A DNA stretch of 64,000 nucleotides from Tenggerimyces flavus (lineage in GTDB: Bacteria; Actinomycetota; Actinomycetes; Propionibacteriales; Actinopolymorphaceae). The position numbers were made by a program, and so were the translations under genes. The first letter of the stretch is position 1; each line of letters opens with the position of its first letter. The notes under the pieces were generated by a model. It made no database searches, was not told the origin of the DNA, and was given only the letters and a program-made list of their open reading frames with translations. Positions 25,337 through 38,427 of this stretch are shown here, piece by piece. The stretch covers positions 5,270,001-5,334,000 of the forward strand of contig NZ_JAFBCM010000001.1 of the NCBI RefSeq assembly GCF_016907715.1, given 5' to 3'.

Positions 25337-26191
25337 CTGAGCGTCATTTCGGAGTCGCGGGCTCGCCAGCTCCTGTCCGACTACGAGCGGACGCTGGCGG
25401 GTGCCGACCTGTCGCCAGGGACGTGTCGCGCCTATGTGTCGCGGGTCGGCGGCTACCTGCGCTGGCTCGCGGGGCCCGAGATCGGCGGCACCGACCTCGG
25501 AACCGGTGATCCGCTCACCGACCCCGTCACCGCGAGGCGAGCGGTCCGCGAGTACCGCTCATGGATCGAGTCCGAGCGCGCCGCCAAGCCGACGACGGTG
25601 AACGCCACCCTCACCGCCCTCGACCACTTCCACGCCTACCAGGGAATCAGCGAGCTCGAGTCCGCCCGCGTCGACCAGCCGGCCGCGGCACCGCCGGCGT
25701 TGAGCCCGGACGAACTGGACGCGTTCCAGCACGCGGTCGCCCGCCGGCAGGCTGTTCGGGACCGGGCGATCGCGCTCGTGCTCGTGGACACCGGGCTCCT
25801 CGCCTCGGAGCTGGTGGCCCTCGACGTTCCCGACGTTCGCCGGGGCACCGCGAGTCTGATCGTTCGACATGACGACGTCGCCAAGCGCCGCGAGCTGCCG
25901 ATGTCACCGCACTCCGAGATCCCGCTTCGCGGCTGGCTACGCGAGCGGTCGCGATGGACGGGGTCCCCCGCCCTGTTCGTCAACCGGCGCGGCGGGCGGC
26001 TCAGCACCCGCTGGGTCACCGAGTTGGTCGTGGCGATCAGCCAGGCCGCGTCGCTGGATCGAGTCGTCACACCGGCCCTGCTGCGGCGTACGTTCGCGAC
26101 CAACCTGCTCGACCGCGGCACCGACCCCCACGACGTCGCGGCGCTGATGGGTCACAAGCGCGTACAGACGACCAACGCGTACCGGCGTTAG
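25337..26191 (+). CDS. Tyrosine recombinase-like protein with two catalytic residues lost
   Basis: XerD-like protein of 284 residues: N-terminal SAM-like DNA-binding domain (LSPGTCRAYVSRVGGYLRWL, about residues 26-45) and C-terminal catalytic fold. Conserved: lysine in AKRRELPM, second arginine in ALLRRTFATN, histidine in LMGHKR, tyrosine in TTNAYRR. Lost: the first arginine (GLLASEL instead of GLRxSEL, about residue 154) and the first histidine (PALLRR instead of PHxLRH). It ends two residues after the tyrosine, shorter than XerD. The frame has no ATG/GTG/TTG before 25436, which would cut the SAM-like domain; the CTG at 25337 follows GGGAGG and is my choice. Strand cleavage seems unlikely; a DNA-binding role is possible. 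Confidence 0.8.
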   Translation: MSVISESRARQLLSDYERTLAGADLSPGTCRAYVSRVGGYLRWLAGPEIGGTDLGTGDPLTDPVTARRAVREYRSWIESERAAKPTTVNATLTALDHFHAYQGISELESARVDQPAAAPPALSPDELDAFQHAVARRQAVRDRAIALVLVDTGLLASELVALDVPDVRRGTASLIVRHDDVAKRRELPMSPHSEIPLRGWLRERSRWTGSPALFVNRRGGRLSTRWVTELVVAISQAASLDRVVTPALLRRTFATNLLDRGTDPHDVAALMGHKRVQTTNAYRR

Positions 26192-26262
26192 ACCTGGTCG
26201 AGGAACCGGTCCAGGACCTTCGTCCCGAACTCCAGCGCGTCCGTCGGGACCCGCTCGTCCAC
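26189..26262. repeat. 74-bp direct repeat, left copy (M20 gene 3' end fragment)
   Basis: Bases 26189-26262 match 28139-28212 at 72 of 74 positions (differences at 26242 and 26251). The right copy is the last part of the M20 peptidase gene. The left copy still encodes, on the minus strand, ERVPTDALEFGTKVLDRFL and the final DQV. Its first three bases form the TAG stop of the recombinase-like gene. The pair brackets the XRE-PIN module and looks like a duplicated attachment or target site. Confidence 0.85.
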
Positions 26263-26376
26263 CTCCTCGCCTAGCTCAACGGACGTGTCGCATCTCGCGG
26301 CTCGGCTGCAGCCGAATGGCCCTTCGCAAGCGACAGCAGCTCGCATGAAGGCTTGTGCGGAATCTGATGTGGACAT

Positions 26377-26414
26377 GTGTGCACACCGGCTCTGCGTGTG
26401 CGAAAATCGCACAC
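26377..26414 (+). promoter_or_regulatory. Operator-like palindromes upstream of the XRE-ImmA gene
   Basis: A perfect inverted repeat GTGTGCGAAAATCGCACAC (26396-26414; 8-base arms, 3-base loop) ends on the base before the ATG. A second palindrome sharing the GTGTGC half-site, GTGTGCACAC, lies at 26377-26386. Such paired sites over the start fit autoregulation by the XRE-type helix-turn-helix protein. No ribosome site fits between palindrome and ATG, so the transcript may be leaderless. Confidence 0.65.
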
Positions 26415-27533
26415 ATGGCTGACGTGGACATTCAAACCCTGGGTGAACGGCTCCGAGTAGCACGTGAGCGGGCGGGCCTGAAGCAAGGCGAGCTTGCGAC
26501 GCTCGTGAACCTCGATCGAACTGCCGTCAACAGGATCGAGACCGGCATCCGCAAAGTCACCGCCCTGGAACTATCCGACATCGCGACGGCCCTGGGCGTG
26601 CGGATGTCCTCATTCTTCGAAGACCCAACTCCGGCACTAGTCTCGCACCGCTCCAGTCAAGGTCTTGATACCGCCGACTCCAAGATTGACCGACTGCTGG
26701 CGGGCATAGCTGCCGACGTGGAGTTCGTGAATGAGCTAGCTCCGGACGAACTTGCACTCCCAGGTGAAGCGACACAGCAGCCCCGTCCCACCAGTTCGTC
26801 CGAAGCCGAGGACCTTGCGGCAACTGCGAGGACCATGCTCGGAGTTGACAGTGCAGAGCCCCTGTGCGACCTGGTTGACCGGGTTGCCTCGGTTGGGCTC
26901 CTTGCGTTCTCTACCGATCTGGGCGTGGACACTGCCGACGCTGGAACGATCCTGCTGCGTCAAGGCGGGGTCTGCCTGATGAACAGTCACAACAAGGTTG
27001 GACGTCGACGCCTGGCGTTGGCCCACGAACTGGGCCACTACTTGGTGGCCGACGAATATACGGTCGATTGGCGTGTCGCCGACCAACGTGGTGGTGACCT
27101 CGAGTCGCTTCTGGACCGATTCGCACGGTCGGTCCTGCTACCTGATGCTGGGGTCCGTGCGTCGTGGGCTCAGCACGAACCGCGGACGCTTCGTGAGATG
27201 GCGGTGCTGCTGGCAAGCAGGTTCCGAGTCGACATGGCGACACTCGCCCGAAGGCTGAATGAGCTGGGTCTGATCGACCGCGACGACGTAGCTCTCGTCC
27301 GCGGCACAACGACGACGCGTGCCGACATCGTGGAGTTTGGTCTCTACGTCCCGTCTGACCTCGAAGGCACCAGCCTTCCCGTGCCGTACCAGAAGGCGGT
27401 CTTGCGAGCTTTCAGGGACGAACGGATCAGCCGGGAACGCGCCCTGGAGCTACTCCACAACACGTTCGCAGAAGCTGATCTACCGGCGCTCCGGCCCCGC
27501 CGTGAAGACGAGATCTGGACGTTCGTGTCGTGA
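26415..27533 (+). CDS. XRE regulator fused to ImmA/IrrE metallopeptidase (antitoxin-type)
   Basis: A 372-residue protein with an N-terminal XRE helix-turn-helix (about residues 8-65: LGERLRVARERAGLKQGELA, then VNRIETGIRKV) and a C-terminal ImmA/IrrE zinc peptidase domain with LAHELGHYLVADEY (about residues 200-213). Such proteins repress a partner operon and are cleaved or act as proteases on stress or phage signals. The ATG at 26415 begins directly after an operator-like palindrome; an in-frame ATG 20 codons upstream would translate through the operator. Its stop overlaps the GTG of the PIN-like gene. Codon use is visibly poorer in G/C at third positions than in neighbouring genes, suggesting transfer. 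Confidence 0.88.
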   Translation: MADVDIQTLGERLRVARERAGLKQGELATLVNLDRTAVNRIETGIRKVTALELSDIATALGVRMSSFFEDPTPALVSHRSSQGLDTADSKIDRLLAGIAADVEFVNELAPDELALPGEATQQPRPTSSSEAEDLAATARTMLGVDSAEPLCDLVDRVASVGLLAFSTDLGVDTADAGTILLRQGGVCLMNSHNKVGRRRLALAHELGHYLVADEYTVDWRVADQRGGDLESLLDRFARSVLLPDAGVRASWAQHEPRTLREMAVLLASRFRVDMATLARRLNELGLIDRDDVALVRGTTTTRADIVEFGLYVPSDLEGTSLPVPYQKAVLRAFRDERISRERALELLHNTFAEADLPALRPRREDEIWTFVS

Positions 27534-28078
27534 GCATGCCGCCATCCGCACTAGTCTTCGACACCGGTCCGTTGCGTCATTTTGCGGTGCAGGGATGGCT
27601 TGGTGTGTTGAAGTTTGTCGCGGGGGATCGCGCCGTCGTCATCCCAGCGAGCGTGGAGTACGAACTCAACAGGCAAGCCCACGACGTTCCCGCTGTGCTC
27701 CAAGTTCTCGGTGCGGACTGGATCGAGGTCGATCGGAGCGACGACCTCCCGTTTCTGATGGCGTTCGCAAAGTATGAGCGGCGTCTCGCCGTCGGGGAAC
27801 AGAATCGCGGTGAGTGTGGTGTTCTTGCCCTCGGCAGGACTAGAGGATTCGAAGCTGTCCTTGACGACGCCGTGCCGCGGGCCGTTGCGAAGGAGGACGG
27901 CATCCAAGTAACGGCGACGCTGCCATTACTCTGCCACGCGATTCGCGAAGGCCAGTTGGCCGTCGCAACGGTAGAGGCGCTCGCCGACGACCTGCTGTCC
28001 GGGGACTACTACCTACCCTTCGCAAAGGGTGGGTTCAGGCAGTGGGCCTACGAGCAAGGACTCATCGAATACGGCTGA
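27530..28078 (+). CDS. PIN-like nuclease domain protein (toxin-type)
   Basis: A 182-residue protein with the layout of PIN/DUF3368-like endoribonucleases: first acidic residue in LVFDTGPLRHFA (aspartate near residue 11), a second in VEYELNRQ, a third in GECGVLALGRTRG and a fourth in LDDAVPRAVAK. The four-acid pattern suggests an active metal-dependent RNase toxin. GTG at 27530 overlaps the preceding stop; an ATG two codons later is the alternative. Pairing with an XRE-ImmA/IrrE gene is a recognised predicted toxin-antitoxin arrangement. The gene ends 60 bases before the right copy of the 74-bp repeat, inside the inserted module. Confidence 0.75.
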   Translation: MSMPPSALVFDTGPLRHFAVQGWLGVLKFVAGDRAVVIPASVEYELNRQAHDVPAVLQVLGADWIEVDRSDDLPFLMAFAKYERRLAVGEQNRGECGVLALGRTRGFEAVLDDAVPRAVAKEDGIQVTATLPLLCHAIREGQLAVATVEALADDLLSGDYYLPFAKGGFRQWAYEQGLIEYG

Positions 28079-28137
28079 GCACTGTCGTTGGGTCCATGCC
28101 ATTGTGTCGTCACATCGCTCGAGCGGGTGGTCGGCGG

Positions 28138-29460
28138 CTAGACCTGGTCGAGGAACCGGTCCAGGACCTTCGTCCCGAACTCCAGCGCGTCGGTCGGGAC
28201 TCGCTCGTCCACGCCGTGGAACATGCCGACGAAGTCCAGGTCGGCGGGCAGCTTCAGGGGCGCGAAGCCGTACGAACGGATGCCCAACCGGCTCCAGGCC
28301 TTGCCGTCCGTGCCGCCCGACATCAGGTACGGGATGGGGCGGGCGGCGGGGTCCTCGGCGATCAGCGAAGCCTTCATCGCCTCGACCAGCCCTCCGGCGA
28401 ACTCGGCCTCCGGCGCGACGTCGAGGTTGACCATCTCGCGCACGACCTTGTCGCCGATCAGCGAGTCGATCGTGGTCAGGAACTCCTCCTGCGCGCCCGG
28501 GACGAAGCGGCCGTCGACGTACGCGATGGCCTCGCCGGGGATGACGTTCAGCTTGTAGCCGGCCTCGAGCATCGTCGGGTTCGCGGTGTTGCGCAGCGAC
28601 GCGCCGATCATCCGCGCGGCCGTGCCGAGCTTCGCCACCGTCGCCTCGAGGTCCGCCGACTTGGGGTCGAGGTCGACGCCGAAGACGTCGGACAGCTCGG
28701 CCAGGAAGGCCGCCACCGTCGGCGTGATCCGCAGCGGCCACTTGTGCTGGCCGATGCGCGTGACGGCCTCGGCGAGCGCGATCACCGCGTTGTCGTCGTT
28801 CGTCATCGACCCGTGTCCCGCGGTCCCGCGAGCGCGCAGCCGCATCCAGGCCATGCCCTTCTCGGCGGCCTGGATCAGGTAGAGCCGCAGGTCGTCGCGG
28901 ATCGTCAACGAGAACCCGCCGACCTCCCCGATCGCCTCTTTGCAGTCCGCGAGCAGCTCCGGGTGCTTGTCGACCAGCCAGTGCGCGCCGTCGTACCCGC
29001 CGGCCTCCTCGTCCGCCGTGTAGACCAGAACGAGCGGCCGCCGCGGCCGCGCGCCGGCGCGTTCGCGGGAACGGACGACCGACAGCACCATCGCGTCGAA
29101 GTCCTTCATGTCGACCGCGCCGCGGCCCCAGACGCAGCCGTCCTGGATCTCGCCGGAGAACGGGTCCACGGTCCAGTCCGCCGCCTGGGCGGGTACGACG
29201 TCGAGGTGACCGTGCACGAGCAGCGGCTCCGCGGCAGGGTCGGTCCCCTCCCAGCGGGCGACGACGGTCGTACGCCCGGGCGAGGACTCGTAGAGCGTGG
29301 GCTCGATCCCGACCTCGGACAGCTTCTCGGCGACGTACTCCGCGGCCTTCCGCTCCCCCGGCCCCGATCCGTCCCCGTAGTTCGAGGTGTCGATCCGAAT
29401 CAGGTCTCGGCACAGCTCGACGACCTCAGCCTCTGGCCGGTACTCCACCCGCTCAGTCAT
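28138..29460 (-). CDS. M20 family metallopeptidase (ArgE/DapE-like)
   Basis: A 440-residue di-zinc aminoacylase, carboxypeptidase or deacetylase. Metal-site motifs are HGHLDVVP (residues 83-90), GRGAVDMKD (about 112-120), and TADEEAGG (about 150-157) with the catalytic glutamate; a C-terminal histidine in MFHGVDERVP completes the site. The insert domain starts at KGMAWMRLRARGTAGHGSM. It begins with a normal ATG. The last 75 bases, stop included, form the right copy of the 74-bp repeat, yet the gene itself is intact, as expected if an element entered at its 3' end and restored it. Substrate not deducible. Confidence 0.92.
   Translation of the reverse strand: MTERVEYRPEAEVVELCRDLIRIDTSNYGDGSGPGERKAAEYVAEKLSEVGIEPTLYESSPGRTTVVARWEGTDPAAEPLLVHGHLDVVPAQAADWTVDPFSGEIQDGCVWGRGAVDMKDFDAMVLSVVRSRERAGARPRRPLVLVYTADEEAGGYDGAHWLVDKHPELLADCKEAIGEVGGFSLTIRDDLRLYLIQAAEKGMAWMRLRARGTAGHGSMTNDDNAVIALAEAVTRIGQHKWPLRITPTVAAFLAELSDVFGVDLDPKSADLEATVAKLGTAARMIGASLRNTANPTMLEAGYKLNVIPGEAIAYVDGRFVPGAQEEFLTTIDSLIGDKVVREMVNLDVAPEAEFAGGLVEAMKASLIAEDPAARPIPYLMSGGTDGKAWSRLGIRSYGFAPLKLPADLDFVGMFHGVDERVPTDALEFGTKVLDRFLDQV
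28139..28212. repeat. 74-bp direct repeat, right copy
   Basis: Partner of the copy at 26189-26262 (72 of 74 identical). It is the 3' end of the M20 peptidase gene, starting one base inside its stop codon. The 1.95 kb from one copy to the other carries only the XRE-ImmA and PIN-like genes. Confidence 0.85.
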
Positions 29461-31069: not shown

Positions 31070-33268
31070 TTGACGGACGCGATCGTCGGTGAGCTGCGCT
31101 CGCTCGCGGGCGCGGAGCTGTACCGGCGTAACGCGTTCCGGCTGAGCGGGTTGCCGGCGAACGTCGACCGGCGCACGACCAGACAGCTACTGCAGCGCCT
31201 CAAGGCGGCCCTCGAGGTCGGTGCCGACGTCGACTTCGGCACCACCGCGTCCAGGGATCCGCACGAGCTCCAGGCCGCCTGCGACCTCATTCTCGGTGAC
31301 CCGCGCCGACGCCTCGTGCACGAGGTGTTCGGGCCCTGGGGCGACGACGTGAGCGCCTGCGAGTGCGAGCGGGACTTCCACCGCCGCCACGACGCCGCGG
31401 TCGATGCGCACGCCACGGCGATCGAGGCCGAGCTGGCGGGCACACAATCCCCAGCCGAACGGGACGCGTACTGGAAGGCGGCCAGCCACCTCTGGGCGAA
31501 CGTGCTCGAGAGCGAGGAGACCTGGGACCACCTCGTCAGCCGGGTCGAGCAGCTGGACGACCGGCAGCTCGACCTGCGCGCGCTCGACGGCATCGAGGAC
31601 GAGCTCCCCCGCGCCCTGCTCAAGCCGCTCACCGACCTCGCCACCGCCAACCCCGCCGAGGCGCCGAGGCTGGCGGCACTCGCCAACGCCTGGCCGGCCG
31701 AGAACGAGCTCACCACCCAGCTGCTCGAGCGCGCCGCGCAGCCGCTGTACGAAGAGCTCGACGCGCACAGGCTCAGGCTCACCGACCAGCTCCAGGCGGA
31801 GGGCCCGCCAGACCCGGTCGCGAACGACATCCAGCGCACCCTCCTCCCCCTGCTCGAGAAGCTCGACGCGCTGCTGCCACCGGCCCGGCACCACCGCACC
31901 GCGACCCTGCACGACCAGCTCGCGATCCTGCTGAACAACTGCGCGGTCAAGCTGCTCGACACCGGCGACGTCACCGACGGCCGGGCCGAGACGTGGCTCA
32001 GCCTCGCGGCCGAACTGGCGATCGACCCGCGCGAGCAGGCGCTGGTCGCCGAGAACCAGCAGGCACTCCGGACGAGCGCCCAGGTGCTGGGCGACTTCGA
32101 GCAGCGGATCTACGACGAGTACACCCGCCGCGGCGAGTTCGCGGCGTTGTTCACGCTCCACGAGGTCCATCGCTCGACCGACGCGCAACCTGTGCGGGAC
32201 GCGGTCGACCGGATGCTCGCGGAGATCAAGGCCGGCACGTTCACGCGCCGGCACCAGGAACGCCGGGGTACGTACAAGCCCGCGGCCACGCGACCGACTC
32301 CGACCCGGCCCCCGCGCGCGCGTCGTCCGAAGCGCCCGAAACGCCCGAAGCGCCGCGGCCGGACCGGCCGGGTCGTGTTCTGGCTGGCGGTCGCCGCCGC
32401 GGTCGTGTTCGCGCTCTACCAATGGGGCACGCTCGGGTCGCTGATCGGACAGCTCGGGCAGGAAGGGCCGGGGCCCAACGCGGTGAACGCGTGGGCGGCC
32501 AAGATCGCCGACAACGCCAAGGTCGGCACCTGCCTGGACGAGCAGAACGGCGACTGGCGGGCGAATCCCGGCGCACTCCGCTCCATCGACTGTGGCCAGC
32601 CGCACTGGGCCGAGATCCTCGGGTACGTGCGGCTCGGCCCGGTCCCCGGCCCCTACCCCGGCGACGACCAGGCGACCGCACTCGCGACGTTCTCCTGCGG
32701 CGAGCAGCTGGCGCGGCAACGGCTGCCCAGGCTGTACCAGGCCGAGGAGGTCCACTCCCGCGCCAAGGACTGGAACACCGGCAAGGTCGAGGGCTACGAG
32801 TACGAGAACTACGCGGTCTGCATCCTCCGAGGCACCGACGACCAACCGATCTCGGCCGGGCGCAAGCTCAAGACCGCCGTGCCGGACGTCCCGATGCCAG
32901 TGCAGATGGAGCTGTACGGCGGCGCGATCGCCGCCAACGCGCCGGTCGGCACCTGCATCCAGAGCCAGGGCAAGATCGCCCAGGGCGGCGTGATCGGCAA
33001 GGTCCCGGTCGTACGCTGCGAGGCCAAGCACTGGGCTCAGGTGGTCGGCTATCCGGCCATCGGCAAGCAAGGCGAGAAGTGGCCTGGCGACAAGGCGGTG
33101 TTCGACCGGGCCAAGCAGGCGTGCGCGAAGCTGATCTCGCGCCGAGAAGGGTTCACAACCTCGGTCGGCTTCCCGGACAAGACCTGGTGGGACAACCCGA
33201 AGCTGACGATCTATACGTTCTGCGCGGCGCATCGCGTCGACGGCAAGCCGTGGGAGGGACGGTTGTGA
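31070..33268 (+). CDS. J-like / single-span membrane protein with two septum-formation domains
   Basis: A 732-residue protein in three parts. Residues about 8-93 (LYRRNAFRLSGLPANVDRR, later DPHELQAACDLILGDPRRRL, HEVFGPW) resemble the divergent J-like module found in other bacterial Hsp70-linked proteins; a helical cytosolic region follows to about 400. A very basic linker (PKRPKRPKRRGR) precedes one membrane span (VVFWLAVAAAVVFALYQWG, about 437-455). Outside are two domains like the septum-formation family: VGTCLDE...CGQPHWAEILGY (about 485-590) and VGTCIQS...CEAKHWAQVVGY (about 625-730). First gene of a five-gene run; its stop overlaps the GrpE-like start (TGATG). It probably couples the Hsp70 machine to the cell exterior. 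The J-like call is by pattern, without the classical HPD motif. Confidence 0.7.
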   Translation: MTDAIVGELRSLAGAELYRRNAFRLSGLPANVDRRTTRQLLQRLKAALEVGADVDFGTTASRDPHELQAACDLILGDPRRRLVHEVFGPWGDDVSACECERDFHRRHDAAVDAHATAIEAELAGTQSPAERDAYWKAASHLWANVLESEETWDHLVSRVEQLDDRQLDLRALDGIEDELPRALLKPLTDLATANPAEAPRLAALANAWPAENELTTQLLERAAQPLYEELDAHRLRLTDQLQAEGPPDPVANDIQRTLLPLLEKLDALLPPARHHRTATLHDQLAILLNNCAVKLLDTGDVTDGRAETWLSLAAELAIDPREQALVAENQQALRTSAQVLGDFEQRIYDEYTRRGEFAALFTLHEVHRSTDAQPVRDAVDRMLAEIKAGTFTRRHQERRGTYKPAATRPTPTRPPRARRPKRPKRPKRRGRTGRVVFWLAVAAAVVFALYQWGTLGSLIGQLGQEGPGPNAVNAWAAKIADNAKVGTCLDEQNGDWRANPGALRSIDCGQPHWAEILGYVRLGPVPGPYPGDDQATALATFSCGEQLARQRLPRLYQAEEVHSRAKDWNTGKVEGYEYENYAVCILRGTDDQPISAGRKLKTAVPDVPMPVQMELYGGAIAANAPVGTCIQSQGKIAQGGVIGKVPVVRCEAKHWAQVVGYPAIGKQGEKWPGDKAVFDRAKQACAKLISRREGFTTSVGFPDKTWWDNPKLTIYTFCAAHRVDGKPWEGRL

Positions 33269-33774
33269 TGAGCTGGCTGAGCACCCGCCAGTGGCGGCAG
33301 CACAAGGCGTTTCGCATCGCGCCGCCGCGCTGGCCCGAGGCCCAACGCGACGACCTGGCGTGGTACCTGAACGAGCTCGCGGAGCTCACCCAGCCAGCCG
33401 AGCAAGAACCAGTGCCCACCGGCGACACCCTGGACGACGGCTCGATGGCCACCGCGGCGACGCAGCTGTGGCGGGCGCAGCGCAAGCTCGCGCAGGGCAA
33501 GCCGGACTCGCAGTCCAAGCAGGCCGCACGCTACCTGCGGACCTGTGCCGAAGCGCTCGCCGAAGCCGGACTCACCGTCCAGGACCACGACGGCGAGCCG
33601 TTCCACGCCGGCAAGTCCATCGAGGTCCTCGTCTACTCCGAGGACCCGGACGTTGGCGCCGAGACCGTCGCCGAGACCGTACGCCCGGCCGTCTACCAGC
33701 ACGGCCGCCGGATCCAGACCGCCCAGGTGATCGTCGCCGTACCCACCGCCGACCCCGAGGACAGCCATGCGTGA
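33268..33774 (+). CDS. GrpE-like nucleotide exchange factor
   Basis: A 168-residue protein. The N-terminal two thirds are helical, with QLWRAQRKLAQ and QSKQAARYLRTCAEALAEAG. The last third (about residues 105-162: GEPFHAGKSIEVLVYSEDP, then RPAVYQHGRRIQTAQVIVAV) matches the small beta domain of GrpE, which opens the Hsp70 nucleotide cleft. It lies directly before the DnaK-like gene and overlaps it by 8 bases. Together these points support a dedicated exchange factor. It differs from housekeeping GrpE in having a short N-terminal helix. Confidence 0.75.
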   Translation: MSWLSTRQWRQHKAFRIAPPRWPEAQRDDLAWYLNELAELTQPAEQEPVPTGDTLDDGSMATAATQLWRAQRKLAQGKPDSQSKQAARYLRTCAEALAEAGLTVQDHDGEPFHAGKSIEVLVYSEDPDVGAETVAETVRPAVYQHGRRIQTAQVIVAVPTADPEDSHA

Positions 33775-36247
33775 CACGATCGACTTCGGCATCGACCTCG
33801 GGACCACCAACAGCGCGATCGCGGTGGCCGACGGCGACACGGTCACGGTGATCAAGAGCAACGACGACAGCCGCGACATCACCCCATCCGCGGTCTGGCT
33901 GCCGAGACCGGGGCTGATCCAGGTCGGCAAGAAGGCACGCGACCGAGCCGAGTTCGACCCGGACAACACCGCGGTCGAGTTCAAGCTGGAGATGGGTCTG
34001 GCCGACGCGGGCAAGAGCTTCGCCCGCGCGGGCGTACGGCTCACGCCGCCGCAGCTGTCCGCGGAGATCCTCAAGGCGCTCCGCGCCGACGCCGCCTCGT
34101 ACCTGAACGGCCCGCCGCCGACCGCAGCCGTGATCACCGTCCCAGCCTCGTTCTCGCTGAACCAGAACAAGGCGACGGTCGAGGCCGCGGTGCTGGCCGG
34201 GTTCGTGCCCGGGTGCCCGCTGGTGCAGGAGCCGACCGCCGCCGCGTTCGCGTACGGGTTCCGCGACGCCTCCGACCGCGCGTACTGGATGGTGTTCGAC
34301 TTCGGCGGCGGAACGTTCGACGCCGCTGTCGTGAGCAAGCGCGACGGCGACCTGCGGGTACTCAACCACGCCGGCGACTCCTACCTCGGCGGCAAGCTGA
34401 TCGACTGGGCGCTGGTCGACCGGGTGCTCGCGCCGGCCGCCGCCCGCGAGCTCGGGCTGACGAACTTCCGCCGCGACGACCCGGCCTGGCGGCACAGCTT
34501 CGCCCGGCTGAAGACGGCCGCCGAGGAGGCGAAGATCGCGCTGTCGCGGACCGCGTCGACCGCGGTCATGGTCGAGCTCGATACCCAATCAGGTATGACC
34601 GAGATGTTCGAGTACACGCTGACGAGAGGCGAGCTGGACCAAGTCGCGGAGCCGTACTACGTCCGCGCGATCAACCTCTGCCGCGAGGCGATGCGCGACA
34701 GCGGGCTGGCGGCGGACGCGATCGACAAGCTCCTGCTGGTCGGCGGCGTCACCCTGACGCCGGGGCTGCGCGAACGCCTCGCCGACCCCCAGGCCGGACT
34801 CGGGATCGAGCTCGACACCAGGCTCGACCCGACCACGGTGGTGGCGCACGGAGCCGCCGTTTTCGCCAGCACCGTAAGGCATCCCGCTCCGGCGGCGACG
34901 GCGCCCGCGGCCGGCGAGTACGGCGTCCAGCTCGCGTACGAGCCGAGCGTCACGACCACCACCCCGACCGTGGCCGGACGGCTGCGGGCCGGCCGCGAGC
35001 TGGACTGGACCGGGTTCTCCGTCGTGCTGGCGAATCCGGACGGCATGCCACCGTTCCGCTCGGCGAACATCGCGCTGAACCGGGCCGGCGCGTTCGCCGC
35101 CGAGGTGACCATCGACGAACGCCGGACGTCCCGCTTCACCCTCGAGCTGTACGACCCGACCGGGGCGCCGCAGAAGCTGACCCCGAACACGCTGTCGATC
35201 ACCCATCGCGAGGTCGAGTTCGGCGGCGCCCGGCTGACCCACTCGCTCGGCATCCAGCTGGCCGACCGCGGGTTCTCGCCGATCCTGCGCAAGGGCGCGG
35301 TCGTTCCGACGCAAGCCCGGGAGACGTTCCGGACCGCGCAGGCGCTGCACCGCCGCGACGACGAGGCGGTGATCCGGATCCCGGTCGTGCAGGGCGAGCG
35401 GCCCCGCGCGGATCGGAACCGACTGGTCGGCACACTCGAGATCCGCCCCGTCGACGTCCGGCTCGACCTGCCGGCCGGGACCGAGGTCGAGGTGACGTTC
35501 GAGGTCGACGCGTCGAACCTCGTCACCGTCGTCGCCGACGTCCCGCTGATCCAGGCGCAGTTCGAGGCCGAGATCGACCTCGACTCGATCCGTACGCCGA
35601 CCGCGGAGTCGCTGCACCAGCAGCTCGCGGAGGCGGAGCGCCGCCTCGACGAGGCACGCGCGTCGGACGACCTCCCGGAGGTGCGCGAACGGCTGGCCAA
35701 GCTGGAGGCAGAGGGCACGCTGACCACCGTCCGCGAACAGGTCCGAGCTGCCTCGACCGACGCCGGCGCGGCCGCGACCGCGGAGGACCGGCTGCGCGAC
35801 CTGCACGCCCAGTTGGACGACGTGGGTGACGCCGCGAAGCTGCCGCCGCTCGTACGGCAGCTGTTGGAGCTGCTCGACGAGGCCAGTGCGCTGGCCGCGC
35901 GGACGAACGCCGCCCGCGACGACCAGGAGCTCGCGCAGCTGCGCGAGCAGGCCCAGCGCGCGATCGACGAGCAGGATCTCCGGGCGGTCCAGGTCCAGAT
36001 CGAGCGGACGACCGCGTTCCTCGTCCGGCTCGAGAGCCGCCAGCCTGGGTGGCCGTCGCGGCTGTTCTACGGCATCACCGAGCAGCCCGGTCTGCTGCCG
36101 CCGACGCGGGAGGCGGACGACCTGGTGCGGGAGGGCAACCAGGCGATCTCGGCCGGCGACGAACGCGCGTTGGAACGGGTCAACCAGCGGCTCGTCCGGC
36201 TGATCCCGCAGGACGAGCAGAGCAAGATCATCGGGCTGATCAAGTGA
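33767..36247 (+). CDS. DnaK-like Hsp70 with divergent substrate domain and coiled-coil tail
   Basis: An 826-residue Hsp70, longer than DnaK (about 620-640). The ATPase is intact: GIDLGTTNSAIAVADGDTV (about residues 5-23), VFDFGGGTFDAAVVSK (about 176-191) and LLVGGVTLTPGLRERL (about 323-338). VQEPTAAAFAYGF is conserved too. The substrate-binding part (about 385-600) is unusual: an extra beta-rich segment precedes a recognisable GTLEIRPVDVRLDLPAGTEV and EVTFEVDASNLVTVVADV. From about 605 to the end the chain is charged and coiled-coil-like. The stop overlaps the GTG of the next gene. Its dedicated neighbours suggest a specialised chaperone, not the housekeeping one. Confidence 0.88.
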   Translation: MRDTIDFGIDLGTTNSAIAVADGDTVTVIKSNDDSRDITPSAVWLPRPGLIQVGKKARDRAEFDPDNTAVEFKLEMGLADAGKSFARAGVRLTPPQLSAEILKALRADAASYLNGPPPTAAVITVPASFSLNQNKATVEAAVLAGFVPGCPLVQEPTAAAFAYGFRDASDRAYWMVFDFGGGTFDAAVVSKRDGDLRVLNHAGDSYLGGKLIDWALVDRVLAPAAARELGLTNFRRDDPAWRHSFARLKTAAEEAKIALSRTASTAVMVELDTQSGMTEMFEYTLTRGELDQVAEPYYVRAINLCREAMRDSGLAADAIDKLLLVGGVTLTPGLRERLADPQAGLGIELDTRLDPTTVVAHGAAVFASTVRHPAPAATAPAAGEYGVQLAYEPSVTTTTPTVAGRLRAGRELDWTGFSVVLANPDGMPPFRSANIALNRAGAFAAEVTIDERRTSRFTLELYDPTGAPQKLTPNTLSITHREVEFGGARLTHSLGIQLADRGFSPILRKGAVVPTQARETFRTAQALHRRDDEAVIRIPVVQGERPRADRNRLVGTLEIRPVDVRLDLPAGTEVEVTFEVDASNLVTVVADVPLIQAQFEAEIDLDSIRTPTAESLHQQLAEAERRLDEARASDDLPEVRERLAKLEAEGTLTTVREQVRAASTDAGAAATAEDRLRDLHAQLDDVGDAAKLPPLVRQLLELLDEASALAARTNAARDDQELAQLREQAQRAIDEQDLRAVQVQIERTTAFLVRLESRQPGWPSRLFYGITEQPGLLPPTREADDLVREGNQAISAGDERALERVNQRLVRLIPQDEQSKIIGLIK

Positions 36248-37176
36248 CCGTTCTCGACGTGCTGCAGGCGCAACTCGCGCTGAGCCGTGCCGCCGAGGCC
36301 GCGCAGCGGGGTTCCCTCGAGTCGGCTGGCGACGAACTGGTCGCGCTCGACGAGGCGGGCGCCGCCACGCCGGAGCTGCTGGACCTGTTGGCGCGGATCC
36401 GCGCGCAGCAGGAACGGTGGTCGGAGGCCGACACGTACTGGGCCCGCTTGCAGGACCTGCGGCCGGACGACCCTGCCGCCGCCGCGGGGCGCGAGACCGT
36501 CGCGGCGATCGTCGCGGGCCGCCGCCGACCTCGGCCGGTCGCGCCCGTTGCGGGCGCGGTCGCGGGCGTCGCGGTGGTCGCGGCACTGGCGTTCGGGGCG
36601 GTACGGCTCGGCGACGTCGACCAGCCACCCACCCGGCCGGCTGCCCAGTCGACCGGCTCCCCTGTTCCCACGGCCGATCCGACGGTGAACGCGGACCGGG
36701 AGCGTGCGGAGGAGCTGGCCGCGCAACTCGCCGCGATCGAGGCGCGGAGTCGTTCCGACGCGGCCGCGCTGGCTGCCAAGCTGGACCAGCTCTCACGGCA
36801 GGTCGCCGGCCCGGGCGTCGTCGTCCGCCGGCAGTCGGGTGCCGTGCGGGTCCTCTTCTCCCAGGGGCTGTACGCGTACGGCACCGCGCTGACTCCCACG
36901 GGCCGCGATGCCCTTACGGCGTTGGGGAAACGCCTCAGCGGGCTGGACGCCGCGATCACCGTCGTCGGCCACTCGGTCGCCCTCCCCGACAAGCCGACGG
37001 GCGGCTCCACGACCGCACTCGCCCGCGCCCGGACCGCGACCCGAGAGCTGAGCGAGGCGTCTGGTCTCCCCCTCGCCGCCTTCACATTGCAGGCCGCCGA
37101 CCAGCGCGAGACCCCGTTCCGGACGGCTCGCCAGAACCGCACCGTCACCGTGCTGCTCACCCCGCGCGCGGCGTAG
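36244..37176 (+). CDS. TPR-like / membrane / OmpA-like wall-binding protein
   Basis: A 310-residue protein. Residues 1-85 are alpha-helical with TPR character (LALSRAAEAAQRGSLESAGD, then RWSEADTYWARLQDLRPDDP). One membrane span follows (about 100-122), then a Pro/Thr linker, a coiled coil (RERAEELAAQLAAIEARSRS) and a C-terminal OmpA/MotB-like domain (about 196-309: LTPTGRDALTALGKRLSGLD, VVGHSV, LARARTATRELSEASGLPL, RQNRTVTVLL). In a Gram-positive cell such a domain would bind peptidoglycan outside. GTG at 36244 overlaps the Hsp70 stop. Known OmpA-like proteins use it as a wall anchor; the link to an Hsp70 is unusual. Confidence 0.75.
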   Translation: MTVLDVLQAQLALSRAAEAAQRGSLESAGDELVALDEAGAATPELLDLLARIRAQQERWSEADTYWARLQDLRPDDPAAAAGRETVAAIVAGRRRPRPVAPVAGAVAGVAVVAALAFGAVRLGDVDQPPTRPAAQSTGSPVPTADPTVNADRERAEELAAQLAAIEARSRSDAAALAAKLDQLSRQVAGPGVVVRRQSGAVRVLFSQGLYAYGTALTPTGRDALTALGKRLSGLDAAITVVGHSVALPDKPTGGSTTALARARTATRELSEASGLPLAAFTLQAADQRETPFRTARQNRTVTVLLTPRAA

Positions 37177-37275
37177 GTATCGGCGCGGAACGCATTGGGC
37201 AGGTTCCCCGTCAGAAGACACGGCGAGCCTCGGATACGGTTCGCGAGGCATTTCCAGGCGTGAGCGGGCGGAGTT

Positions 37276-38427
37276 ATGGATCGACTGCAGTCCAGGCGGC
37301 AAGGCGTACGGACGATGACCATCCTGCTGATCGTGAACCTCGTCCTCGGCGGCGCGGGGATCGCGGCCGCGCTGACGATCGGGACGACGGGCAGCACGAC
37401 GACGTCCGACGCACCGACGCAGCCCGCCGAGACCTCCGATCCCACGACGGCGCCCACGCCCGAGCCGGAGCCCTCGACTGAGCCGACCGACGACGACCAG
37501 CCGCCCGAGCCGAGCGCCGAGCTCGTCAAGCTCCAGGAGGGGCTGAAGCGGGCCGGGTACGCGTGCTACCAAGCCGTCACCGAGCCCATTCTCGTGCACA
37601 GCTGCTACCTCGAGCCCGGCACGCGAAGCCTGGATGAGCAGCAGCTCCACATCCAGACCGGCCCGGACGGCAAGATCGCGGCGATCGAGGTCAAGATCAG
37701 CTACTTCGAGGACACGAAGGCCTCGCTGGCGCTGTTCCAGAAGACCGTGCACGCCCTCGAGGGCACGCTGCTCGACCAGGCCGAGGCCGCCAAGGTGCTG
37801 AACGGCCGTACCGACGACCAGGTCTCCGGCGCCGGCACGCACAACAACCAGACGCTCGCCTGGGGAACGTCGCGCCTCTTCGTCTCCGACGACAAGCGGG
37901 CGTACTACCTCGACCTCGCCGCCAAGGGCAAGAAGGAAACGCCGATCGCGCACGGCAGCACGGCCGTGACGATCGCGGATCTGAAGAAGAACTACGAAGG
38001 CAAGAAGTTCACCTGCAAGATCGACACCAAGCTCGAGTCGCTCAAGTGCCAGCAGCGGGAGAAGGGCGCGGTTTACACGATCCTCGCGTTCGACCCCTGC
38101 CTGACCGACGCCGAGAAGTACGAGCTGATCTGCCGCGACCACACGGCGTACAGCGTCAGCGCGAGTGTCGGGTTCGGCAACAACCTGCCCAACGCGCAGT
38201 ACGAGCGGATCTTCGAGTTTCTCGTCACCAGTACGGACTTCACGATGGGTGGCATGAGCCCCGAGACGCAGACGTGGCTGACGACGAGCCTGAACGACTC
38301 CGAGGCGCGGGTGCACCGGGCCGACTTCCAGCAGATGCACCTCAGCACCGAGCCCGGCGCCGGGGTGTACGAAGAGTTCCCGAACGTGTTCCAGGTCGAA
38401 GTGACGGGTCACAACCTCACGCAGTAA
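37276..38427 (+). CDS. Membrane-anchored extracellular protein of unknown family
   Basis: A 383-residue protein that I do not recognise. One N-terminal span (MTILLIVNLVLGGAGIAAAL, about residues 14-33) is followed by a Pro/Thr/Glu-rich stalk (about 40-80) and a soluble domain of about 300 residues with six cysteines that could form disulfides outside the cell. It follows the OmpA-like gene by 99 bases on the same strand, and a GGCGGAG sits before its ATG. By placement it may be an exported partner or client of the Hsp70 system, but the gap could also hold its own promoter. Confidence 0.6.
   Translation: MDRLQSRRQGVRTMTILLIVNLVLGGAGIAAALTIGTTGSTTTSDAPTQPAETSDPTTAPTPEPEPSTEPTDDDQPPEPSAELVKLQEGLKRAGYACYQAVTEPILVHSCYLEPGTRSLDEQQLHIQTGPDGKIAAIEVKISYFEDTKASLALFQKTVHALEGTLLDQAEAAKVLNGRTDDQVSGAGTHNNQTLAWGTSRLFVSDDKRAYYLDLAAKGKKETPIAHGSTAVTIADLKKNYEGKKFTCKIDTKLESLKCQQREKGAVYTILAFDPCLTDAEKYELICRDHTAYSVSASVGFGNNLPNAQYERIFEFLVTSTDFTMGGMSPETQTWLTTSLNDSEARVHRADFQQMHLSTEPGAGVYEEFPNVFQVEVTGHNLTQ

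Follow-up and report, generated by a model that had tools for sequence, protein, structure and literature searches.

In DnaK, the HPD motif of the J-domain partner contacts L391 of the linker, P419 and R167/Q378, and loss of this motif has, according to one review, abolished J-domain stimulation of the Hsp70 ATPase in every system tested (PMC8215388). Membrane-associated arrangements have also been described: E. coli HscC works with the membrane-anchored proteins DjlB and DjlC (PMC8215388), and the Pam16 protein of the mitochondrial PAM carries a J-like domain that cannot stimulate Hsp70 ATPase (PMC5773037). Given HscC and PAM, the premise of a preliminary description of a stretch of Tenggerimyces flavus DNA, namely that known Hsp70s are cytosolic and served by general partners, was too strong. 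Here we characterize four genes in this stretch (the window, by which we mean all 64,000 nucleotides analyzed, part of an 8.5-Mb one-contig genome) that encode a J-like membrane protein (P1), a GrpE-like protein (P2), an Hsp70 (P3) and a TPR/OmpA-like protein (P4). The gene set, its order and its domain make-up recur in related loci, the HPD motif and the matching Hsp70 contacts are absent, and sister operons are linked to a Ser/Thr kinase. The tight, dedicated Hsp70 set tied to outside domains that was first described is thus borne out, and is kept as a unit across many actinomycetes. Among the titles and abstract openings listed from the open-licence literature (supplements outside its scope), no description of this operon was recognized.

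The four-gene unit spans 31070-37176 with every neighboring pair overlapping: the ATG of P2 has one base in common with the P1 stop codon, P2 and P3 overlap by eight bases, and P3 and P4 by four. These values agree with the overlaps of 1 to 8 bases first reported for four genes, the coordinates of which were likewise verified, and the P1 start codon (TTG) is in line with the starts of its Kribbella relatives. We hold the anatomy of the P1–P4 unit with high confidence.

P3 matches the Pfam family HSP70 (PF00012) at E = 6.3e-80 and falls under the prok_dnaK equivalog cut-off (TIGR02350, 272.7 bits vs. 822.55). When an alignment of the P3 family (mean column identity 57%) was set beside 21 canonical rows representing 18 distinct genes, the catalytic D, T, K and E were found in 35/35 family rows, as expected from the intact ATPase of the preliminary description. 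The span from the nucleotide-binding domain (NBD) to the beta part of the substrate-binding domain (SBD-beta) covers 118–127 residues in all 35 family rows vs. 18 in all 21 canonical rows, and the family lacks the short hydrophobic interdomain linker of Hsp70s. At the position of DnaK R167, the 55 family members examined carry Pro (47), Arg (5, all Streptomyces), Thr (2) or Glu (1), and 54 of them have Gln at the N170 position, compared to R and N in 21/21 canonical rows. An AlphaFold2 (AF2) model of P3 (mean pLDDT 88.8, pTM 0.82) places strands at residues 385-480 in the linker, followed by SBD-beta and helices over residues 613-818, and its best Foldseek matches are DnaK/Hsp70 structures (E 9.7e-42). 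The "divergent substrate part" noted earlier resolves into an additional domain within the linker, an SBD-beta that can be recognized and a lengthened helical tail. This insert matched CarboxypepD_reg (E=0.0034) in one of six members, with the window's own copy unmatched. In a quick-method tree that carried long-branch warnings, the P3 family separates from the three canonical DnaKs included, with a support of 100.

The partner protein P1 is more variable (mean column identity 25%), and its C-terminal part is exchanged between branches. Alignment of its N-terminal module against canonical J domains (hhalign) gave one colinear alignment of 66 columns (P=7.7e-5), and the AF2 model (mean pLDDT 88.0, pTM 0.56) predicts helices at residues 22-26, 34-50, 64-75 and 78-86, in J order and size, followed by a helical region up to residue 400, a transmembrane (TM) helix and two beta domains. 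In the corresponding controls for this comparison and that of P2 with GrpE, reversed alignments gave 0.35 (J) and 0.12 (GrpE), and crossed pairs 0.07 and 0.52. Shuffled alignments outscored the real ones in 1/200 (J) and 3/200 (GrpE) cases; these are alignments of 15-37 columns with scores of 130-134 that look like program artefacts, with the next-best shuffles scoring 17.4 (J) and 25.2 (GrpE) against 29.9 and 40.4 for the real alignments. A canonical J profile run against all 5184 open reading frames (ORFs) of the related loci, 53 of which are J-like, placed six J-like ORFs in its top 30 and 14 among its 85 matches at E<=100, none significant alone. We thus regard J kinship of the P1 module as moderately supported. 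No HPD occurs at the expected place between helices II and III in 66 J-like rows (including 14 seed rows that partly repeat named loci; one row, L186, is too short to tell), and the HPD letters in row L188 lie by chance beyond the J-like module. Pattern scanning of the 56 loci and the window likewise gave no HPD J-domain ORF.

On the far side of its single hydrophobic span (residues 431-459 or so, preceded by Arg/Lys-rich sequence), P1 carries Septum_form domains (Pfam, E=1.9e-11, two stretches), which agrees with the one membrane span and two exported septum-type domains first ascribed to it. Septum_form is present in 11/35 P1 relatives, and the eight cysteines are conserved in 11/11 of the rows that bear it. 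Separately, P1 residues 97-110 (window 31358-31399) form a CxC...HD stretch, a possible metal site, in which 21/35 P1s retain each of Cys97 and Cys99, with His107 nearby; some other P1 branches instead have a CxxC...CxxC stretch ahead of hydrophobic segments.

For P2, the Pfam GrpE match (E=0.004, 17.3 bits) lies under the curated cut-off of 25.8, and phmmer against solved structures returned no match at E<=10. At the family level, the GrpE-like family (mean column identity 28%) aligns with GrpE over 71 columns (hhalign, P=1.5e-5), 17/33 P2 relatives match Pfam GrpE at E<=0.1 (best 4.3e-5), and GrpE-like ORFs fill the entire top 30 of 5184 for a canonical GrpE profile. In the reverse search, the GrpE-like profile picks up canonical GrpE genes. 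Because of this ranking and its reverse, GrpE ancestry of P2 is well supported, and the GrpE-like exchange factor proposed initially holds by kinship.

P4 had been described as TPR-like, membrane-spanning and OmpA-like. Hydrophobic spans are predicted in both P1 and P4, and among 18 P4 relatives at E<=0.1, 15 match TPR_2 (best 5.7e-7) and 8 match OmpA (best 1.2e-10); window P4 alone gives only a weak TPR match (0.041) and is not among the OmpA matches listed.

Taken together, the canonical J trigger appears to be missing on both partners, because no HPD is found, the R167 position is mostly changed and the linker is interrupted in 35/35 family rows. The term "complete" used for this machine in the preliminary description accordingly goes too far: all J-like relatives examined are without HPD, and R167 and the plain linker are lost in most or all of the Hsp70s.

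To describe how the unit is distributed, we combined profile searches at several taxonomic ranks with a species-wide pattern scan. Full-length P3 relatives occur in two other genomes of a set of 38 (own included), at 68% and 42% identity. With the GrpE-like profile, the unit is found in 13/38 Kribbella genomes, and matches in 14/391 genomes of the order (own genome counted), 31/394 of the class at E<=0.001 (18 weak and, counting the own genome, 13 strong at E<1e-20) and 8/396 of the phylum at E<=1e-5 (own genome the sole strong match); the order, class and phylum counts are lower bounds because only 8-9 candidates were scored per genome. Of 17 weak class loci examined, the profile identifies 16 (all but L069) as canonical GrpE genes, and a canonical DnaK ORF is present in 15. 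The pattern scan, based on the P3 C-terminal alignment, reduced 84,980 species to 125 stretches and ultimately to 56 loci. These lie in Kribbella, Plantactinospora, Micromonospora, Actinoplanes, Catenuloplanes, Nonomuraea, Actinocrispum, Crossiella, Saccharothrix, Nocardia, Pseudonocardia, Actinomadura, Frankia and kin, Streptomyces, Microlunatus, Allokutzneria, Promicromonospora and a Stackebrandtia metagenome-assembled genome (MAG). Most genera carrying the unit form hyphae. Nearly all loci are actinomycete, the outliers being single MAGs labelled Accumulibacter, Thermoguttaceae and Myxococcales. One such contig, labelled Candidatus Accumulibacter vicinus (L172), holds a J-like, GrpE-like, Hsp70 and OmpA-like set, a placement due to either transfer or mis-binning.

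Every ORF in the 56 loci was scored against the component profiles, with the kinase called at E<=1e-60, and gene orders were written with J for J-like, G for GrpE-like, H for Hsp70, O for OmpA-like and K for kinase. The orders observed are JGH (16), JGHO (11), JKGHO (9), GHOJ (8), KJGHO (5) and GHO (2), with JKH, GH, JHO, KJGH and H found once each. J, G and H thus stand together in 50/56 loci, O is present in 36/56 and K in 16/56; the loci lacking the full three-gene core (GHO 2, GH 1, JKH 1, JHO 1, H 1) include some at contig ends. G and H genes overlap in 41/53 pairs; the overlap is exactly 4 bases long in 20 of these and 8 bases long in 18. This recurrence answers the concern that the genes might never be adjacent elsewhere, and refutes chance adjacency of unrelated genes, a negligible prospect whose one footing was that the preliminary description rested on a single genome. 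In the Hsp70 tree, the window copy forms a group (support 100) with seven copies from Kribbella, each of which has the JGHO order and Septum_form. The three Kribbella copies that carry the kinase lie immediately outside this group, and a further Kribbella copy (G027) is found far off, beside Streptomyces. One genus therefore holds at least two distant versions, for which horizontal transfer would be the simplest reading.

Table 1 Features of the Hsp70 unit and the adjacent gene in the window
Feature	Position	Strand	Description
P1, 732 aa	31070..33268	+	J-like module, helical region, one TM, two exocytoplasmic Septum_form domains
J-like module	31109..31354	+	P1 residues ~14-95; hhalign of family vs. 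canonical J; no HPD
P1 transmembrane helix	32369..32443	+	residues 434-458; Arg/Lys-rich on N side
Two Septum_form domains	32465..33265	+	eight Cys, four each
P2, 168 aa	33268..33774	+	GrpE-like; GrpE match at residues 86-157
P3, 826 aa	33767..36247	+	Hsp70 of separate family
NBD	33767..34873	+	catalytic residues kept; Pro151 at DnaK R167 position, Gln154 at N170
Extra beta domain, NBD-SBD linker	34904..35233	+	~105 residues; linker span comparison, AF2 strands
SBD-beta	35243..35596	+	phmmer to solved DnaKs from residue 493
Long helical lid/tail	35603..36220	+	residues 613-818, AF2 model
P4, 310 aa	36244..37176	+	TPR-like N-part, TM ~102-120, OmpA-like outside domain
P5	37276-38427		3' of P4, beyond 99-base gap

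Signalling genes accompany the unit in sister operons. Two of the kinases were checked against Pkinase (4.5e-43 and 2.2e-41), and in L158 an FHA/Trans_reg_C protein (FHA E=5.5e-7) lies ahead of the kinase; this protein and its relatives occur in 6/56 loci, L158 included. An FHA protein was also suspected by eye in Frankia-type loci, and the only one tested (L089) is without a Pfam match at E<=0.01. PknB-type kinase/FHA signalling exists in actinobacteria; the sister operons resemble it in carrying kinase and FHA genes, which are absent from the window operon and, for the kinase, from its nearest Kribbella relatives.

We consider it about an even chance that the unit is an accessory, envelope-tethered, dedicated Hsp70 machine that serves as an ATP-driven switch or assembly factor and is kinase-linked in sister operons. 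P1 would be oriented with its N-terminus inside and its C-terminus outside, such that its cytoplasmic J-like and helical parts bring P3 to the membrane, recruiting the Hsp70 and not firing its ATPase, by analogy with the inactive J-like domain of Pam16 (PMC5773037). Firing would not proceed via the HPD-R167-linker contact; the likeliest inputs would instead be the linker-inserted domain and, in sister operons, phosphorylation. P2 would exchange nucleotide on P3, and the OmpA-like domain of P4 would tie the complex to peptidoglycan. The TM helices, the Septum_form domains with their conserved cysteines and the OmpA-like domain place the far end of the machine outside the membrane, from which we infer an envelope role, in which the machine may report or answer the state of the wall or membrane by acting on wall or membrane complexes, our best guess for its target. 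More tentatively, and on balance doubtful, the family might form a distinct class of bacterial Hsp70 that has discarded the J trigger on both partners and whose cycle is gated by envelope or phospho-signals via the linker domain, with the kinase encoded in sister operons. A conserved family without the HPD contact on either side, which keeps its ATPase residues and a GrpE relative, offers a natural test of other ways to drive an Hsp70, and the unit connects a chaperone ATPase with domains facing the wall and membrane, and in sister operons also with Ser/Thr-kinase signalling.

Several observations weigh against this envelope-tethered reading. Septum_form is fused to P1 in only 10/56 loci, the kinase is found in only 16/56, and 20/56 loci are without a detected OmpA-like gene, some of them at contig ends. 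No window ORF matches the kinase profile or the FHA protein, and kinase control therefore cannot act there from within the operon; the patchiness of the unit in Kribbella likewise means that it has no core wall function. The five Streptomyces Hsp70s among 55 keep the Arg, with no HPD seen in their J-like rows. Furthermore, the "J-like" label of the P1 module, which the preliminary description introduced and which the family alignment and helix pattern favor, is only weakly upheld by direct searches: apart from the missing HPD, Pfam DnaJ matches 0/35 P1 relatives at E<=0.1, none of the J-like ORFs among the 5184 reaches E<0.1 with the canonical J profile (best 0.25), and Foldseek with the whole P1 model gave 497 matches at E<=10, of which none attained E<=0.001 and the best 50 include no J domain.

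Alternatively, the unit could belong to the conflict or antiphage systems, its Hsp70 setting the threshold for a membrane response, akin to the HSP70-GrpE theme of GAP1-N2 systems. We judge this unlikely, though it is the best of the alternatives. Neighborhoods of HSP70 and GrpE (with DnaJ or a TPR fusion) in actinobacteria and firmicutes have been placed among membrane-near conflict systems (PMC7159879), and patchy occurrence in one genus, the G027 copy on its distant branch (which suggests gain and loss), and the variability of P1 and the GrpE-like protein, with the P1 C-terminal part swapped between branches, would all suit such a role. Against this, only six same-strand neighbor families close to the Hsp70 recur in at least 3/56 loci, and by eye none resembles a GTPase, GAP1 or effector (GAP1-N2 profiles were not run). 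Direct support for the defence role named among the first suggestions was not found: PADLOC gave weak matches only for P2 (0.049) and P5 (0.0091) and none for P1, P3 and P4. The first 400 residues of P1 match 0 of 72,556 plasmid records, and the 44 stretches in viral contigs that fit the pattern gave no confirmed case. Plasmid records matching P3 number 242, none across more than 80% of its length.

A motor that translocates or folds proteins at a membrane channel, as in mitochondrial PAM with its degenerate J protein, Hsp70 and GrpE, appears less probable still. It has the same cast of parts, including, in Pam16, a J-like domain unable to stimulate ATPase (PMC5773037), yet PAM keeps an HPD J protein, of which the pattern scan found no counterpart, and in the present family the R167 position and linker are changed as well. 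A channel gene was not noticed, and no search aimed at channels was made. We find it very improbable that P3 is an ordinary extra DnaK paralogue that, with its partners, buffers general folding. Its intact catalytic residues and the several further Hsp70 genes elsewhere in its own genome would allow this, but its separate branch (support 100, with long branches), the linker insertion, the lost J contacts and the GrpE-like and membrane partners in conserved operons argue otherwise.

Beyond P4, P5 had been described as a fifth, exported orphan that follows the set and is ruled out as a component, since it has no relative among the ORFs of 13 related loci or of the 56 (the two sets overlap). P5 has no significant Pfam family, and begins with a hydrophobic stretch followed by a Thr/Pro/Glu-rich stalk; the P4-family profile matches it weakly (E=2.7e-4), which may be due to the Thr/Pro-rich stretch. 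Elsewhere in the same genome, a second divergent Hsp70 (L208:5786-8657, ~4.80 Mb) precedes a gene whose start is of J type, with no HPD seen, and DnaJ and GrpE family matches are nearby. An Hsp70-like gene (L209:3677-11527, ~0.41 Mb) has in its vicinity a GrpE-family match and what by eye appears to be a gene for a dynamin-like GTPase. Within the window, positions 26189-26262 and 28139-28212 form a direct repeat of 74 nt (97%) that duplicates the 3' terminus of the M20 peptidase gene at 28138-29460 (minus strand). Between the two copies lie a gene of HTH/ImmA-IrrE type (26355-27533) and a 182-aa gene that has no Pfam match (27530-28078), and a phage-integrase-family ORF (25436-26191) adjoins the left copy; window 26189-28212 looks like a small integrated element of ~1.95 kb.

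Compared with described systems, the unit does not fully fit the GAP1-N2 HSP70/GrpE theme, HscC-DjlB/DjlC or PAM. It resembles the GAP1-N2 systems, as outlined by Kaur et al. 2020 (PMC7159879), in its actinobacterial HSP70 and GrpE operons, DnaJ- or TPR-bearing protein and membrane- or wall-facing domains, with a kinase theme in the same class; those systems center on a GTPase, GAP1 and FNIII, none of which was noticed in the window operon or its recurring neighbors. Like P3, HscC is a divergent bacterial Hsp70 that has membrane-anchored J proteins of its own, although HscC is thought not to use GrpE (PMC8215388), whereas the window unit includes a GrpE-like gene along with a linker domain and OmpA and Septum_form parts, and lacks the HPD. 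Mitochondrial PAM likewise combines a membrane Hsp70, a GrpE relative and a degenerate J-like protein but, unlike the window unit, retains the J protein Pam18 and operates at TIM23 (PMC5773037). With canonical DnaK-DnaJ-GrpE, finally, the unit shares the catalytic NBD, SBD-beta and the GrpE head, and it differs in having lost the HPD, R167 and the plain linker and in possessing an extra beta domain, a longer helical tail and membrane partners.

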